Virus record (IMG/VR): IMGVR_UViG_3300030329_001142
Span: 1-30,110 of that record
Direction: 5' to 3' (one strand)
DNA: 30,110 nucleotides
Source of the DNA: a virus
Shown here: positions 1 through 5,761 of the stretch, piece after piece
Numbering within the stretch: the first letter of the stretch is position 1
How the letters are laid out: each line of letters begins with the position of its first letter
The notes under the pieces: generated by a model
Told to the model about the DNA's origin: nothing
What the model saw: only the letters and a program-made list of their open reading frames with translations
Databases searched by the model: none
Translations under genes and position numbers: made by a program

Positions 1-51
1 AGGTGACACTGGGCTTGGGGTGAGCACGGGGCAACCGTCGCTCTGTTTCAC
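1..51 (-). CDS. possible N-terminus of a further early gene, cut by the window edge
   Basis: After the stop of the initiator-like gene (TGA at 57-59) the minus strand stays open to the left edge from a GTG at 49-51, or from a TTG at 58-60 that overlaps the preceding stop. No clear ribosome binding site is seen and the visible peptide (about 17 residues, Pro and Ser rich) matches nothing I recognise. Tight packing of this operon makes a following gene likely, but the exact start is a guess. Confidence 0.2.
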   Translation of the reverse strand, partial: MKQSDGCPVLTPSPVSP

Positions 52-56
52 TGGCT

Positions 57-584
57 TCAATTAGCAGCAAGTGCAAAGCTTCGACGGTAACGGGTCTTTT
101 CATCATCACTGAGTTTTCCATAGGCTTGCCAAAAGTCAGCGCAATCAACAGGTGACATTCTCTTGGTGTATTCAATCATGGGATCTTTGCGTGGCTGCTT
201 GCCATCAACCACAGCTCTGTAAGAAGGGTTGGAGTATTTTACACTCCGGGCAATAAGAGGGGCAACAGTGTCAAACTCGTAAAAGTTATTAACTGTTTCA
301 GAGTTAAAAGCATTTAAATTAAAAGCTTTTAACTCAGGGTTTTTAATTAAATAGTTTTTTGGGGGTAATTGCTTTTGCTTAAAAGCTTTTAATGTAAAAG
401 CTTTTAAAGTGTGTAAAAGCTTTTGAGTCCCAAACACTGCGAATCGATTACCACGCTTTTCGATTTTCACAAAACCGCTATCCACAACTTCGCGCAATCC
501 ACACGATTTAGTCGTGGATAACTCTGTCAATTGACCAGTATGGACATTCCACATAATTTCAAAGGCTTCATGGCTGAGCATCAT
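57..584 (-). CDS. replication initiator-like protein with iteron-encoded linker (lambda O-like, tentative)
   Basis: The 175-residue product is not recognisable by strong homology. Residues 1-55 look like a small winged-helix domain (LTELSTTKSCGLREVVDSG followed by a basic FVKIEKRGNRFAVFG hairpin). Residues 58-95 are a low-complexity linker repeating LKAF/LNAF, encoded by the AAAAGCTTTT palindromes at 304-426. The C-terminal part (about 100-175) is polar and charged. A winged-helix N-terminus followed by a linker made of iterated DNA sites is the plan of lambda O, where the origin lies inside the initiator gene. It is the last complete gene of the cro-led operon and overlaps the DnaA-domain gene by 17 bases, and GGTGGAAA precedes the tandem ATGs (582-584, 579-581). 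The initiator role is inferred from position, fold impression and embedded sites. It could instead be another DNA-binding early protein. Confidence 0.5.
   Translation of the reverse strand: MMLSHEAFEIMWNVHTGQLTELSTTKSCGLREVVDSGFVKIEKRGNRFAVFGTQKLLHTLKAFTLKAFKQKQLPPKNYLIKNPELKAFNLNAFNSETVNNFYEFDTVAPLIARSVKYSNPSYRAVVDGKQPRKDPMIEYTKRMSPVDCADFWQAYGKLSDDEKTRYRRSFALAAN
304..426. repeat. cluster of AAAAGCTTTT palindromes (candidate origin iterons)
   Basis: Copies of the palindrome TTAAAAGCTTTTAA or close variants lie at 304-317 (one mismatch in the core, AAAAGCATTT), 319-332, 379-392, 395-407 and about 414-426. They fall in two groups separated by an AT-rich stretch of about 45 bases. Being palindromic, each copy reads the same on both strands, and each encodes LKAF or LNAF in the overlapping gene. 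The surrounding 300-430 region is markedly AT-rich. A repeated symmetric site inside an initiator-like gene is typical of replication origin iterons, but operator function is an alternative. Confidence 0.6.
478..521. promoter_or_regulatory. cluster of DnaA-box-like sites
   Basis: Three sequences close to the DnaA box TTATCCACA lie within 44 bases: CTATCCACA at 478-486 (8 of 9), CAATCCACA at 495-503 (7 of 9), and TTATCCACG read on the minus strand at 513-521 (8 of 9). They sit about 50 bases from the AT-rich palindrome cluster and in the gene next to a stand-alone DnaA domain IV gene. That arrangement resembles an origin, with boxes beside an unwinding element. Chance matches to one box are common, but three in 44 bases is less so. 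Confidence 0.5.
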
Positions 585-975
585 TTTCCACCGGGATATT
601 CAAAAATAAGCTTTCGGCACGGGCAATAATAAATGCCCTTTTTTGTTGTTCAGTCGGTGTGTCCAAGTATTCTTCTGTGTATTTGTTTGCACCGTGAATC
701 ACTGTTGAATGGTCACGGCAAAGCAATCGTCCGATCTGTGACCAAGTAAGAGCCAGTTCGTACCGGGCAATGTGAAAGAGTCTCCACTTTGGCAAAGTAA
801 ACCTGTGTGCTCTCGACGAAGACATAAATTCCTCATGGCTAAAATCTTCGATTTGCACAGTGGCTTGAATCAAGTCAGCCAGAAAATACTTACGCTTGAT
901 GGGGTAACGTTTTTCCATTTGACGACGCTCTTCTAGGAAGTTTGCGCCATCGGGTTCAATAACCAGTTTTCTCAT
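568..975 (-). CDS. stand-alone DnaA domain IV-like DNA-binding protein
   Basis: 135 residues. Residues 77-100 carry the DnaA C-terminal signature: a WSQIGRLLCRDHSTVIHGANKY segment that matches the box-recognition helix-turn-helix of bacterial DnaA, including the D-H-S/T-T-V core (residues 88-92). There is no room for the AAA+ ATPase domain, so this is only the DNA-binding module with about 60 extra N-terminal residues. The start ATG (973-975) overlaps the stop of the VRR-NUC gene as ATGA, and GAGGAG stands 7 bases upstream. In a replication operon next to DnaA-box-like sites it could recruit or exclude host DnaA at the phage origin. Recognition of the domain is firm, and the role is inference. 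Confidence 0.8.
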   Translation of the reverse strand: MRKLVIEPDGANFLEERRQMEKRYPIKRKYFLADLIQATVQIEDFSHEEFMSSSRAHRFTLPKWRLFHIARYELALTWSQIGRLLCRDHSTVIHGANKYTEEYLDTPTEQQKRAFIIARAESLFLNIPVENDAQP

Positions 976-1343
976 TTTGTACTCCTCAGTTTTATATATT
1001 TGTTTAGTGCCTCTTCTGTGTCCTCGATGCTTCGCACCACCTCAATAATGCAGCCAACGCCTCTCAGGAGCGTGTGTGCTGCCTTCTGGTTAACACTTAA
1101 GCGTCCCTTGGCTGTCTTGACCTCTAGGAATATCGGCTCCCATTCAGAGAGCTTTCGCCAGCTTGCAGGTGGAATGAACAGCTCAAGATCTGGCCATCCT
1201 GCGAACATGCCCATTGCCTTTTGGTGAACACGGTACTGAACCCGGTGACGCCCCTCGTTCGGTGAGTGATGTACGACGCTGCCTGGGGGCAAGGCGACGT
1301 TCAGCCACTGCACGATGCCCTTATGGATCTGTGCCTCATTCAC
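972..1343 (-). CDS. VRR-NUC domain nuclease
   Basis: 123 residues from a GTG start at 1341-1343. The open frame extends to 1496, but that extension overlaps the methyltransferase deeply and lacks family similarity, while GTG has a GAGG about 9 bases upstream. The protein shows the compact PD-(D/E)XK nuclease plan of VRR-NUC proteins: N-terminal helix (NEAQIHKGIVQWL), HHSPNEG, then GWPDLE (49-54) with D52, and FLEVKTAKGRLS (72-83) with catalytic E74 and K76, and Q86. Known family members are structure-specific or Holliday-junction nucleases in phages. Here it probably processes replication or recombination intermediates. The start overlaps the methyltransferase stop by 8 bases and the end overlaps the DnaA-domain gene as ATGA, so the genes are translationally coupled. 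Confidence 0.85.
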   Translation of the reverse strand: MNEAQIHKGIVQWLNVALPPGSVVHHSPNEGRHRVQYRVHQKAMGMFAGWPDLELFIPPASWRKLSEWEPIFLEVKTAKGRLSVNQKAAHTLLRGVGCIIEVVRSIEDTEEALNKYIKLRSTK

Positions 1344-1830
1344 GGTCCCAGACCTCGAATTTGCAAATATCTGAGTGAGGGCTGTCCCAGATGCTGATAG
1401 CCAAGGCTCTGTCCGGCGAACCACCCTTGCCCAGATAATCTTCACGCCATGTGAGGTTGGCGAATCGGCTAGGCCGGTGTCGGCTCCACTGTTCATGGCC
1501 TTTACCGCAAGCCCACAGTCTTTCAGCGCACACCAGGGCCATGCGCTCTACGCCAATATCAAAGGCGTGGTCAATAAACTGGCGCATTAGGCGAAACGGT
1601 GGATTTGTGACTAGTGCTGGTGCTTCGGCACGGTCCCAGGCAAAAAAATCATTTCCCGTGGCAATGTCGTGGGTGACGACCTCTGCGCCTCTAAACCGCA
1701 TGGCACCAGCAAGGCGACCATCACCAGCGCAAGGTTCCCATACAGTCGTGGAAGGCCACTCCAGGCGGCTGAGCAGCACATTGATAATGCTATAAGGCGT
1801 TGGGTAAAAGTCTCTGCTGCGCCTAGTCAT
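1336..1830 (-). CDS. phage N6-adenine DNA methyltransferase-like protein
   Basis: 164 residues. WEPCAGDGRLAG (31-42) is the SAM-binding motif I and TNPPF (75-79) is the NPPF/NPPY catalytic motif of N6-adenine (or N4-cytosine) amino-methyltransferases. FYPTPYSIINVLL near the N-terminus is the usual lead-in of small phage Dam-like enzymes. There is no separate target recognition domain, so specificity must lie in the short C-terminal half. It would methylate phage DNA in the cytoplasm, which may protect it from host restriction or mark replicated origins. It follows the Cro-like gene with an 8-base overlap and no strong ribosome binding site, suggesting translational coupling. Confidence 0.8.
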   Translation of the reverse strand: MTRRSRDFYPTPYSIINVLLSRLEWPSTTVWEPCAGDGRLAGAMRFRGAEVVTHDIATGNDFFAWDRAEAPALVTNPPFRLMRQFIDHAFDIGVERMALVCAERLWACGKGHEQWSRHRPSRFANLTWREDYLGKGGSPDRALAISIWDSPHSDICKFEVWDRE

Positions 1831-2026
1831 CTGCGGAAAACTCAGCGATTAAATCATTGGCGGTCACCTCGCCGTGCGTTATTTCTAAAATGTGTGAAGC
1901 AATCTTCCAGCTTGGCTTTTTCTTCCCGGCTGCAATCATACTTATATATGACCGTGTAACTCCTAGTTGATGAGCTATTGACCCTTGGGTCTTCCCTGAT
2001 TGTCTGATCCAGTGTGTAAAATACAT
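1823..2026 (-). CDS. Cro-like small helix-turn-helix repressor
   Basis: 67 residues. The helix-turn-helix is GKTQGSIAHQLGVTRSYISMIAAGKKKP (11-38), with the Q..IA..LGV..SYIS pattern of Cro/YdaS-type phage repressors, and the length is typical of Cro. It is the first gene of the leftward early operon and is transcribed away from the CI-like side across a 107-base operator region. No Shine-Dalgarno sequence precedes the ATG (2024-2026), whose upstream bases are TTTACCACC, so translation may be weak or use a very short leader. By position it should repress the lysogeny side and tune early transcription. The name Cro rests on size, fold and location. Confidence 0.75.
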   Translation of the reverse strand: MYFTHWIRQSGKTQGSIAHQLGVTRSYISMIAAGKKKPSWKIASHILEITHGEVTANDLIAEFSADD

Positions 2027-4664: not shown

Positions 4665-4963
4665 CCTATCCATTGCAACCAGGCGCACGGGAGCGCGACA
4701 CCAGCTTCGCTGCCGCTCAAGCCATAGCTCCTAAAGCTCAGACACTGAGAGAGCTCTGCATGACCGTTTTTAATGCAGAAGACGGGCTTACCGCTGACGA
4801 AGTGGCAGACGTACTTGGTCATTCAATTCTCTCAGTGCGTCCACGGATCACTGAACTGTCGCGGTTGGACTACATCGAAGACAGCGGCGACAGACGCCCT
4901 AATCATTCTGGAAAAAACGCAATCGTATGGAGAAAAAAATGGAAACGCGATTTGTTCGCCTAG
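4661..4963 (+). CDS. winged-helix DNA-binding protein
   Basis: 100 residues from ATG 4661, which overlaps the micropeptide stop. The frame is open further up but lacks a supported start. After a polar N-terminus, residues 30-95 form a winged helix: LTADEVADVLGHSILSVRPR is the helix-turn-helix, followed by ELSRLDYIEDSGDRRPNHSG and a KNAIVWRKK wing strand. This is the layout of small phage and plasmid wHTH proteins with a MarR-like core. GGGTGG lies 7 bases upstream. It may regulate its own operon or assist recombination, and the sequence does not decide. Its end overlaps the next small gene by 25 bases. Confidence 0.7.
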   Translation: MTYPLQPGARERDTSFAAAQAIAPKAQTLRELCMTVFNAEDGLTADEVADVLGHSILSVRPRITELSRLDYIEDSGDRRPNHSGKNAIVWRKKWKRDLFA

Positions 4964-5091
4964 AGGCACAGAGGATCGACGCAGTTGACGGGCTGTTGAA
5001 AACCCTGCCGCACAAAACATGGCGTAGACAGTTTTGGACAAATGTACGCAGTGCTTTAACGCGAAGATGGAAGGGTGAGTTATATGAATAA
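4939..5091 (+). CDS. 50-residue basic hypothetical protein
   Basis: ATG 4939 to TAA 5089-5091, with GGAG at 4929-4932, 6 bases before the start. The product begins METRFVRLEAQRIDAVDGLL and is rich in Arg, Lys and Trp (KTWRRQFWTNVRS, ALTRRWKGELYE). It starts inside the winged-helix gene and ends 8 bases into the ERF gene, filling a gap that would otherwise be empty in a tightly packed operon. No family recognised. A DNA-binding accessory of the annealing protein is possible but unproven. Confidence 0.6.
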   Translation: METRFVRLEAQRIDAVDGLLKTLPHKTWRRQFWTNVRSALTRRWKGELYE

Positions 5092-5761
5092 TGTGTTGGA
5101 AATTGAGGCGTACAAGCCTGACCTAATGGCTGATTGGATTGCGGCCTTGCACGAAATGGATAATCCCGGTTTGGACGGCAAAGCAAATTACGGCACTTAC
5201 CCCACGCTGGGTCGGTGCCTTGCTGCTGCCAAGCTTGCACTAGGCAAGCATAACCTTGCCATCATGCAAATGGTCTGCGCTGCGGATGACGGTCAACCTG
5301 ATCGCCTGGTCACACGGGTTGTCCATTCGTCAGGCAGCTTTATCGAAGACGGTGGGGTGCCGCTGTACTGTGAGAACAAGAACAACCCCCAGAAAATGGG
5401 CTCAGCAATTACCTATGCACGGCGATACGGACTTTTGGCGATGATTGGTTGTGTAGGTGACGACGACGACGATGCTCAGGCAGCTACGCCGCAACGCGAA
5501 CTACCGAAGCCTAAGCCGCAGCCTGTGGCAAAGGTCGCTGACGAAATTCCACTAGATGAATCTGAGGCGCGTGAGGACTACACGGCATGGGTTGCTGACG
5601 CAATCGCTGGGTTTGCAAAGCATAAGGATATGTCGCAGCACGACGGCTGGGCCACGGTTAACAAATCGACTACCGACGCGCTTAAAGCAGTCCCAGAATT
5701 AAGACAAGAAGTTCTACAAGCATGGCTAACCAGGAAAGGTGAATTAACGAATGGCAAATGA
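5084..5761 (+). CDS. ERF-family single-strand DNA annealing protein
   Basis: 225 residues from ATG 5084. A GTG at 5075 is in frame but would overlap the AAGGGTGAG ribosome binding site (5071-5079) that serves the ATG. The ERF core spans about residues 20-135: a helical start, then NPQKMGSAITYARRYGLLAM followed by IGCVGDDDDDA, the family's most conserved block with an acidic end. The C-terminal part is a flexible linker (ELPKPKPQPVAKV) followed by a small helical domain. ERF proteins, as in P22, form rings that anneal complementary single strands in RecA-independent recombination. The PD-(D/E)XK exonuclease at the head of the operon would supply the single strands. Its stop overlaps the next gene by 11 bases. 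Confidence 0.9.
   Translation: MNNVLEIEAYKPDLMADWIAALHEMDNPGLDGKANYGTYPTLGRCLAAAKLALGKHNLAIMQMVCAADDGQPDRLVTRVVHSSGSFIEDGGVPLYCENKNNPQKMGSAITYARRYGLLAMIGCVGDDDDDAQAATPQRELPKPKPQPVAKVADEIPLDESEAREDYTAWVADAIAGFAKHKDMSQHDGWATVNKSTTDALKAVPELRQEVLQAWLTRKGELTNGK

Follow-up and report, generated by a model that had tools for sequence, protein, structure and literature searches.

The window (30,110 bp, an IMG/VR virus record whose ends are linear) probably contains the replication origin of the phage at positions 304-521, embedded in the gene of its own putative initiator, P0001. As stated in a preliminary description of this DNA, a set of palindromes and a set of DnaA-like boxes all lie inside a single open reading frame (57-584, minus strand). 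What is directly established is this anatomy (array, AT-rich stretch and boxes in one gene), selection at the level of DNA, co-variation of the palindrome arms and synteny with related phages. An origin inside an initiator-like gene, the central claim of the preliminary description, is a prediction that is partly supported and is the reading with the best support; the contrast drawn there with phage lambda was wrong, however, and relatives of a kind that speak against the claim exist.

P0001 is encoded in a minus-strand early operon with the order HTH regulator, methyltransferase-like protein, VRR-NUC nuclease, P0002, P0001 and, last, a DUF6362 gene of which only the beginning is on the contig. 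By position in the window the genes are:

1-106, minus strand: first part of the DUF6362 gene (PF19889, HTH-like), truncated at the edge of the contig; its start was placed by alignment with two related contigs, L005 and L006
57-584, minus strand: P0001, initiator-like protein of 175 aa, the gene carrying palindromes and boxes; no family match
568-975, minus strand: P0002, stand-alone DnaA domain IV (Bac_DnaA_C), 135 aa; Pfam match with E 6.9e-8
972-1496, minus strand: VRR-NUC nuclease; family match
1336-1830, minus strand: DNA methyltransferase-like protein; family match
1823-2026, minus strand: Cro-like HTH regulator, the first gene of the operon; family match

The description of P0001 as standing at the end of a replication operon is therefore a loose one, because the DUF6362 gene runs on downstream and off the contig. 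Divergent from the HTH gene, at a place possible for a repressor, is a gene for a 278-aa protein (2134-2970); a relative of 285 aa occurs in contig L008, and family searches gave nothing convincing for it. Amid the lysis and structural genes, 8196-9236 matches a DNA repair exonuclease PHROG.

Within the P0001 gene the sites are arranged as follows:

304-317: palindrome copy 5, weak; TTAAAAGCATTTAA, one mismatch, itself not palindromic; degraded in L005
319-332: palindrome copy 4; exact TTAAAAGCTTTTAA; counterpart in L006 TGCAAAGCTTTGCA
333-378: AT-rich, strand-asymmetric stretch, a possible unwinding element; minus strand CCCCCAAAAAACTATTTAATTAAAAACCC
379-392: palindrome copy 3; exact TTAAAAGCTTTTAA
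394-407: palindrome copy 2; one mismatch; exact in L005
410-418, minus strand: extra DnaA-like box, absent from the preliminary description; TTTTACACA, one mismatch; overlaps palindrome copy 1
413-426: palindrome copy 1; two mismatches; codon frame differs from that of the other copies
478-486, plus strand: DnaA-like box; CTATCCACA, one mismatch to TTATNCACA
495-503, plus strand: weak DnaA-like box; CAATCCACA, two mismatches
513-521, minus strand: DnaA-like box; TTATCCACG, one mismatch

Sites matching TTAAAAGCTTTTAA with up to two mismatches number five, all within 304-426; the rest of the 30,110 bp contains no further site at this threshold. The five copies previously described are thus present, but only two are exact, two are near matches and one is weak. 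The three DnaA-box-like sites described at 478-521 are likewise present, with one, two and one mismatches, and the AT-rich stretch said to lie beside the repeats is borne out: the 60 bp from 302 are 80% AT, among the AT-richest of the window. A stretch related to 333-378 occurs also in L006, L008, L039 and L040. The array is the densest repeat cluster in the window, as it is in a 36-kb relative, and falls in the part of the gene that codes for the poorly conserved middle of P0001.

The null models held the P0001 protein fixed and drew synonymous codons at random (2,000 draws). The P0001 gene contains six palindromes of at least 10 bp, compared to a null mean of 0.7-1.2, and this number was reached in none of the 2,000 draws; given such an excess over synonymous-codon nulls, the palindromes are well beyond chance. 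Boxes with up to one mismatch number three, where the nulls give 0.55-1.0 (P between 0.009 and 0.056 according to the null used), and taken alone the boxes of the window are only suggestive of an excess over chance.

Close relatives of P0001 are found in three IMG/VR contigs, L005, L006 and L008, with 94%, 59% and 44% identity, respectively; distant homologues were located by searching with DUF6362 and with the C-terminal domain. L006 has the sites GCAAAGCTTTGC, CAAAGCTTTG and TGCAAAGCTTTGCA at the places of window copies 1, 2 and 4, plus GCTTTGCATGCAAAGC. At the three orthologous sites both arms of the palindrome are altered together (TTAAAAGCTTTTAA to TGCAAAGCTTTGCA) and the AGCT centre is kept; the codon frame of copy 1 differs from that of copies 2 and 4 in the window and in L006 alike. 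Palindromes that stay in place while their arms change together, and that do so in two reading frames, argue that selection acts on the DNA. This is the DNA-level conservation that the preliminary description had proposed to seek in relatives. In L008, AGCT centres stand at four places aligned with window sites, with one clean palindrome only.

Between the window and L006, P0001 is 38% identical in alignment columns 1-54 and 84% identical in columns 106-175; compared to L005, which has the same palindromes, identity is 98% at the N-terminus and 90% at the C-terminus. The HTH of DUF6362 is almost identical between L005 and L006. Because this HTH is nearly constant while the N-terminus of P0001 diverges, the change in the arms tracks P0001. 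These data fit a role for the N-terminal part of P0001 as the putative palindrome reader, and divergence of the N-terminus combined with conservation of the C-terminus is as would be expected for an initiator matched to its sites. The structure model of P0001, with a mean pLDDT of 46, is poor and too uncertain to be used in a fold search; at low confidence it suggests an N-terminal helix-helix-two-strand unit, an unstructured middle coded by the palindromes and a helical, conserved C-terminus. Searches of P0001 against PHROGs, Pfam, solved structures, and phage and plasmid records returned no match, comparison with lambda O (hhalign) found no relation, and profile searches of the P0001 locus found no plasmid Rep domain, Rep_3 or other. 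Scans of bacterial genomes returned no relatives of P0001 and P0002; the whole window gave no match to phage records by megablast.

We also looked for relatives that keep the protein and have lost the palindromes, which the preliminary description had counted against an origin, and there are three. L039 and L040 (57% GC) retain the P0001 homologue and the DnaA domain-IV gene with no palindromes and no box at up to one mismatch; L038 has a P0001 homologue without palindromes and one weak box only. These genuine exceptions show that the protein can persist without an in-gene array; they do not show the array to be without function in the phages that have one. Conversely, L022, L027 and L028 have similar palindromes and no P0001 homologue, which leaves room for a different protein as the palindrome binder.

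P0002 scores 32.9 bits against Pfam Bac_DnaA_C (curated cut-off 31.5) and aligns with a solved DnaA structure; for its moderate structure model DnaA is the top match, albeit a weak one. With 135 aa it comprises domain IV only, the AAA+ domain of full-length DnaA being missing. It possesses the signature D-H-[ST]-T and an arginine: R55, D88 and H89, which we take to be equivalent to E. coli DnaA R399, D433 and H434, are invariant across four close relatives. The box-contact histidine is lost in L020 and L021 (RDSSTV), and also in L038. In profile searches, all 10 loci of the P0001 family proved to encode a domain-IV protein upstream, and no other DUF6362 locus that was scanned did so. A DnaA domain-IV-like ORF also lies near a DnaB-like helicase in L010 (5430-8351). 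The literature library searched contained no paper on stand-alone DnaA domain-IV proteins of phages, nor one on DUF6362.

Perfect boxes occur in several relatives. The position homologous to the box at 478-486 holds a perfect box in both L006 (TTATGCACA) and L008 (TTATCCACA). L020 and L021 each have three perfect boxes 12 bp apart inside the gene of the P0001 homologue, and L041 has two perfect boxes in its homologue gene; in each of these the boxes are followed by AAGCTT-centred or related repeats. The occurrence of DnaA boxes beside putative initiator sites, marginal in the window alone, is strong in L020, L021 and L041.

Palindromic sites had been thought to set this phage apart from lambda. 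The contrast fails: in lambda, too, every iteron is an inverted repeat; it is bound by a dimer of O and lies within O beside an AT-rich stretch (PMC7466680, PMC5043065), and palindromic sites are therefore no distinction. If P0001 is the initiator, both phages have an AT-rich stretch and inverted repeats, the latter mid-gene, inside the initiator gene of a Cro-led early operon. The differences are that P0001 is unrelated to O by sequence (Phage_rep_O and O-like PHROGs were not matched), that the window has DnaA boxes beside the repeats and a DnaA domain-IV gene upstream, and that downstream of P0001, where lambda has the helicase-loader gene P, lies a gene for a domain of unknown function (DUF6362), which may or may not be P-like. 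The origin most likely works like lambda ori, yet by sequence lies outside the O family.

DnaA boxes beside iterons are standard in iteron plasmids (P1, F, pSC101 and R6K; Rep_3 family); these plasmids combine sites for the initiator with DnaA boxes and AT-rich DNA (PMC5043065, PMC5703833), as the window probably does. The iterons of these plasmids, however, bind monomers, and the Rep_3 domain found there has no counterpart in the window. Iterons of iteron plasmids usually lie outside rep. In the pSK41-type (RepA_N) staphylococcal plasmid the Rep boxes lie centrally within rep, that is, the origin is inside the initiator gene, and the initiator has three parts (N-terminal binding domain, origin-coded linker and C-terminal domain), a likeness to P0001 (PMC5703833); no sequence relation was found, and DnaA boxes were not detected in staphylococcal plasmids (PMC5703833). 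In repABC plasmids, too, the origin is within the initiator gene (PMC3155836). The closest phages by portal protein, the HTVC010P-type pelagiphages, also encode a DnaA domain-IV protein that stands alone, with the annotation replication initiation; it shares with P0002 a 25-residue local match only, and HTVC034P, the one pelagiphage genome examined, has no comparable palindrome array near the DnaA-like gene. Compared to known origins, the differences would be the unrelated initiator family, the placing of DnaA boxes within that one gene, and the DnaA domain-IV and DUF6362 genes on either side.

DNA binding, opening, helicase loading and the identity of the box reader we infer as follows. Dimers of P0001 would bind the palindromes by way of the N-terminal domain, and the boxes would be bound by DnaA, that of the host and possibly also the phage protein P0002. 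P0001 and DnaA would jointly open the AT-rich stretch, taken as 333-378 or as the 60 bp that begin at 302, whereupon host DnaB helicase would be loaded; the host helicase is proposed because neither a helicase nor a primase is among the early genes typed. Early-operon transcription across the site may assist, as in lambda. GC skew, suggested previously as a check, tracks gene direction and is uninformative on origin position. Alternatively, a DnaA-like job could be divided among two or three small phage proteins, with P0002 reading the boxes, P0001 reading the palindromes of its own gene and the DUF6362 protein recruiting the helicase, and with little or no need for host DnaA; we hold this version to be unlikely, although not negligible.

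Clusters of at least four similar 12-mers are present within 1.1 kb before DUF6362 in nine of 15 loci tested, not all of which are independent; these nine are among 19 such clusters in the loci, compared to 2.6 expected under an even spread. Eight clusters, of several distinct repeat sequences, lie about 130-390 bp ahead of DUF6362, which is the position of the array in the window. The repeat sequences are phage-specific (TTAAAAGCTTTTAA, TGCAAAGCTTTGCA, TAATAAGCTTATA and ACTAGTAGCTACTAGT), and in L033 a 24-bp inverted repeat (TTGATGACAATTCGTTGTCATCAA) occurs three times, exactly or nearly so, at 520-730 ahead of DUF6362. The array of L022 lies partly in non-coding DNA. In L034 a gene of the locus matches the PHROGs 'replication initiation O-like' and 'DnaD-like helicase loader' and has two repeat families in its linker, and the L029 locus contains a primosomal-protein gene; on the basis of these genes the locus is a replication locus in relatives with a recognizable initiator. 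DUF6362 had no match in named phages and plasmids. L022, a DUF6362 phage without DnaA domain IV, encodes a GcrA-like protein in the operon (4776-5354; PF07750, E 2.7e-11); GcrA, like DnaA, is an alphaproteobacterial cell-cycle regulator.

The placement ahead of DUF6362 in eight loci would also suit operators. The palindromes might be bound by P0001, P0005 or the DUF6362 HTH protein, and a promoter inside P0001, tuned by the boxes, might drive DUF6362 and the late genes; terminase genes do come after DUF6362, and DnaA can serve as a transcription factor. We nonetheless consider this distinctly unlikely: a cluster of four to five sites within a gene, accompanied by DnaA boxes and AT-rich DNA, is more typical of an origin, no more copies lie near other promoters, and the L034 repeats are within an O-like initiator, distant from DUF6362. 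A role of the array in packaging, as a pac or cos site recognized by the small terminase subunit, is quite improbable. Genes for this subunit lie 0.8-1.8 kb downstream in L006 and L008, but DUF6362 stands between array and terminase genes (in L006 together with two opposite-strand genes), DnaA boxes have no purpose at a packaging site, and the location of the L034 repeats in an O-like initiator gene again speaks against it.

The boxes could conceivably serve the phage domain-IV protein alone, which would then counteract host DnaA by decoy or repression and play no part in phage replication, in keeping with the joint occurrence of P0002 and P0001 in 10 of 10 loci. This is very improbable, as L039 and L040 have the domain-IV protein without boxes, and the boxes of L020 and L021 are perfect although the contact histidine is lost, which is better explained by host DnaA as the box reader there. 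Least credible, and disfavored, is that the repeats are a by-product, without a role for the DNA, of a repeated peptide (LKAF or LNAF at four of five sites, with two in-frame pairs spaced 15 bp) and AT-rich codon use, given that one site is in a different frame (QKLL) in both the window and L006, that the L006 palindromes persist despite changed arms and peptide, that codon nulls rarely yield so many palindromes, and that the L022 array is in part non-coding.

If an origin within P0001 is the correct reading, then a group of uncultivated podoviruses would gain an origin that can be named and tested, together with a new family of initiators. The stand-alone DnaA domain-IV proteins of phages, recurrent and so far unexplained, would be tied to a concrete origin, and DUF6362 would acquire a likely role in phage replication.
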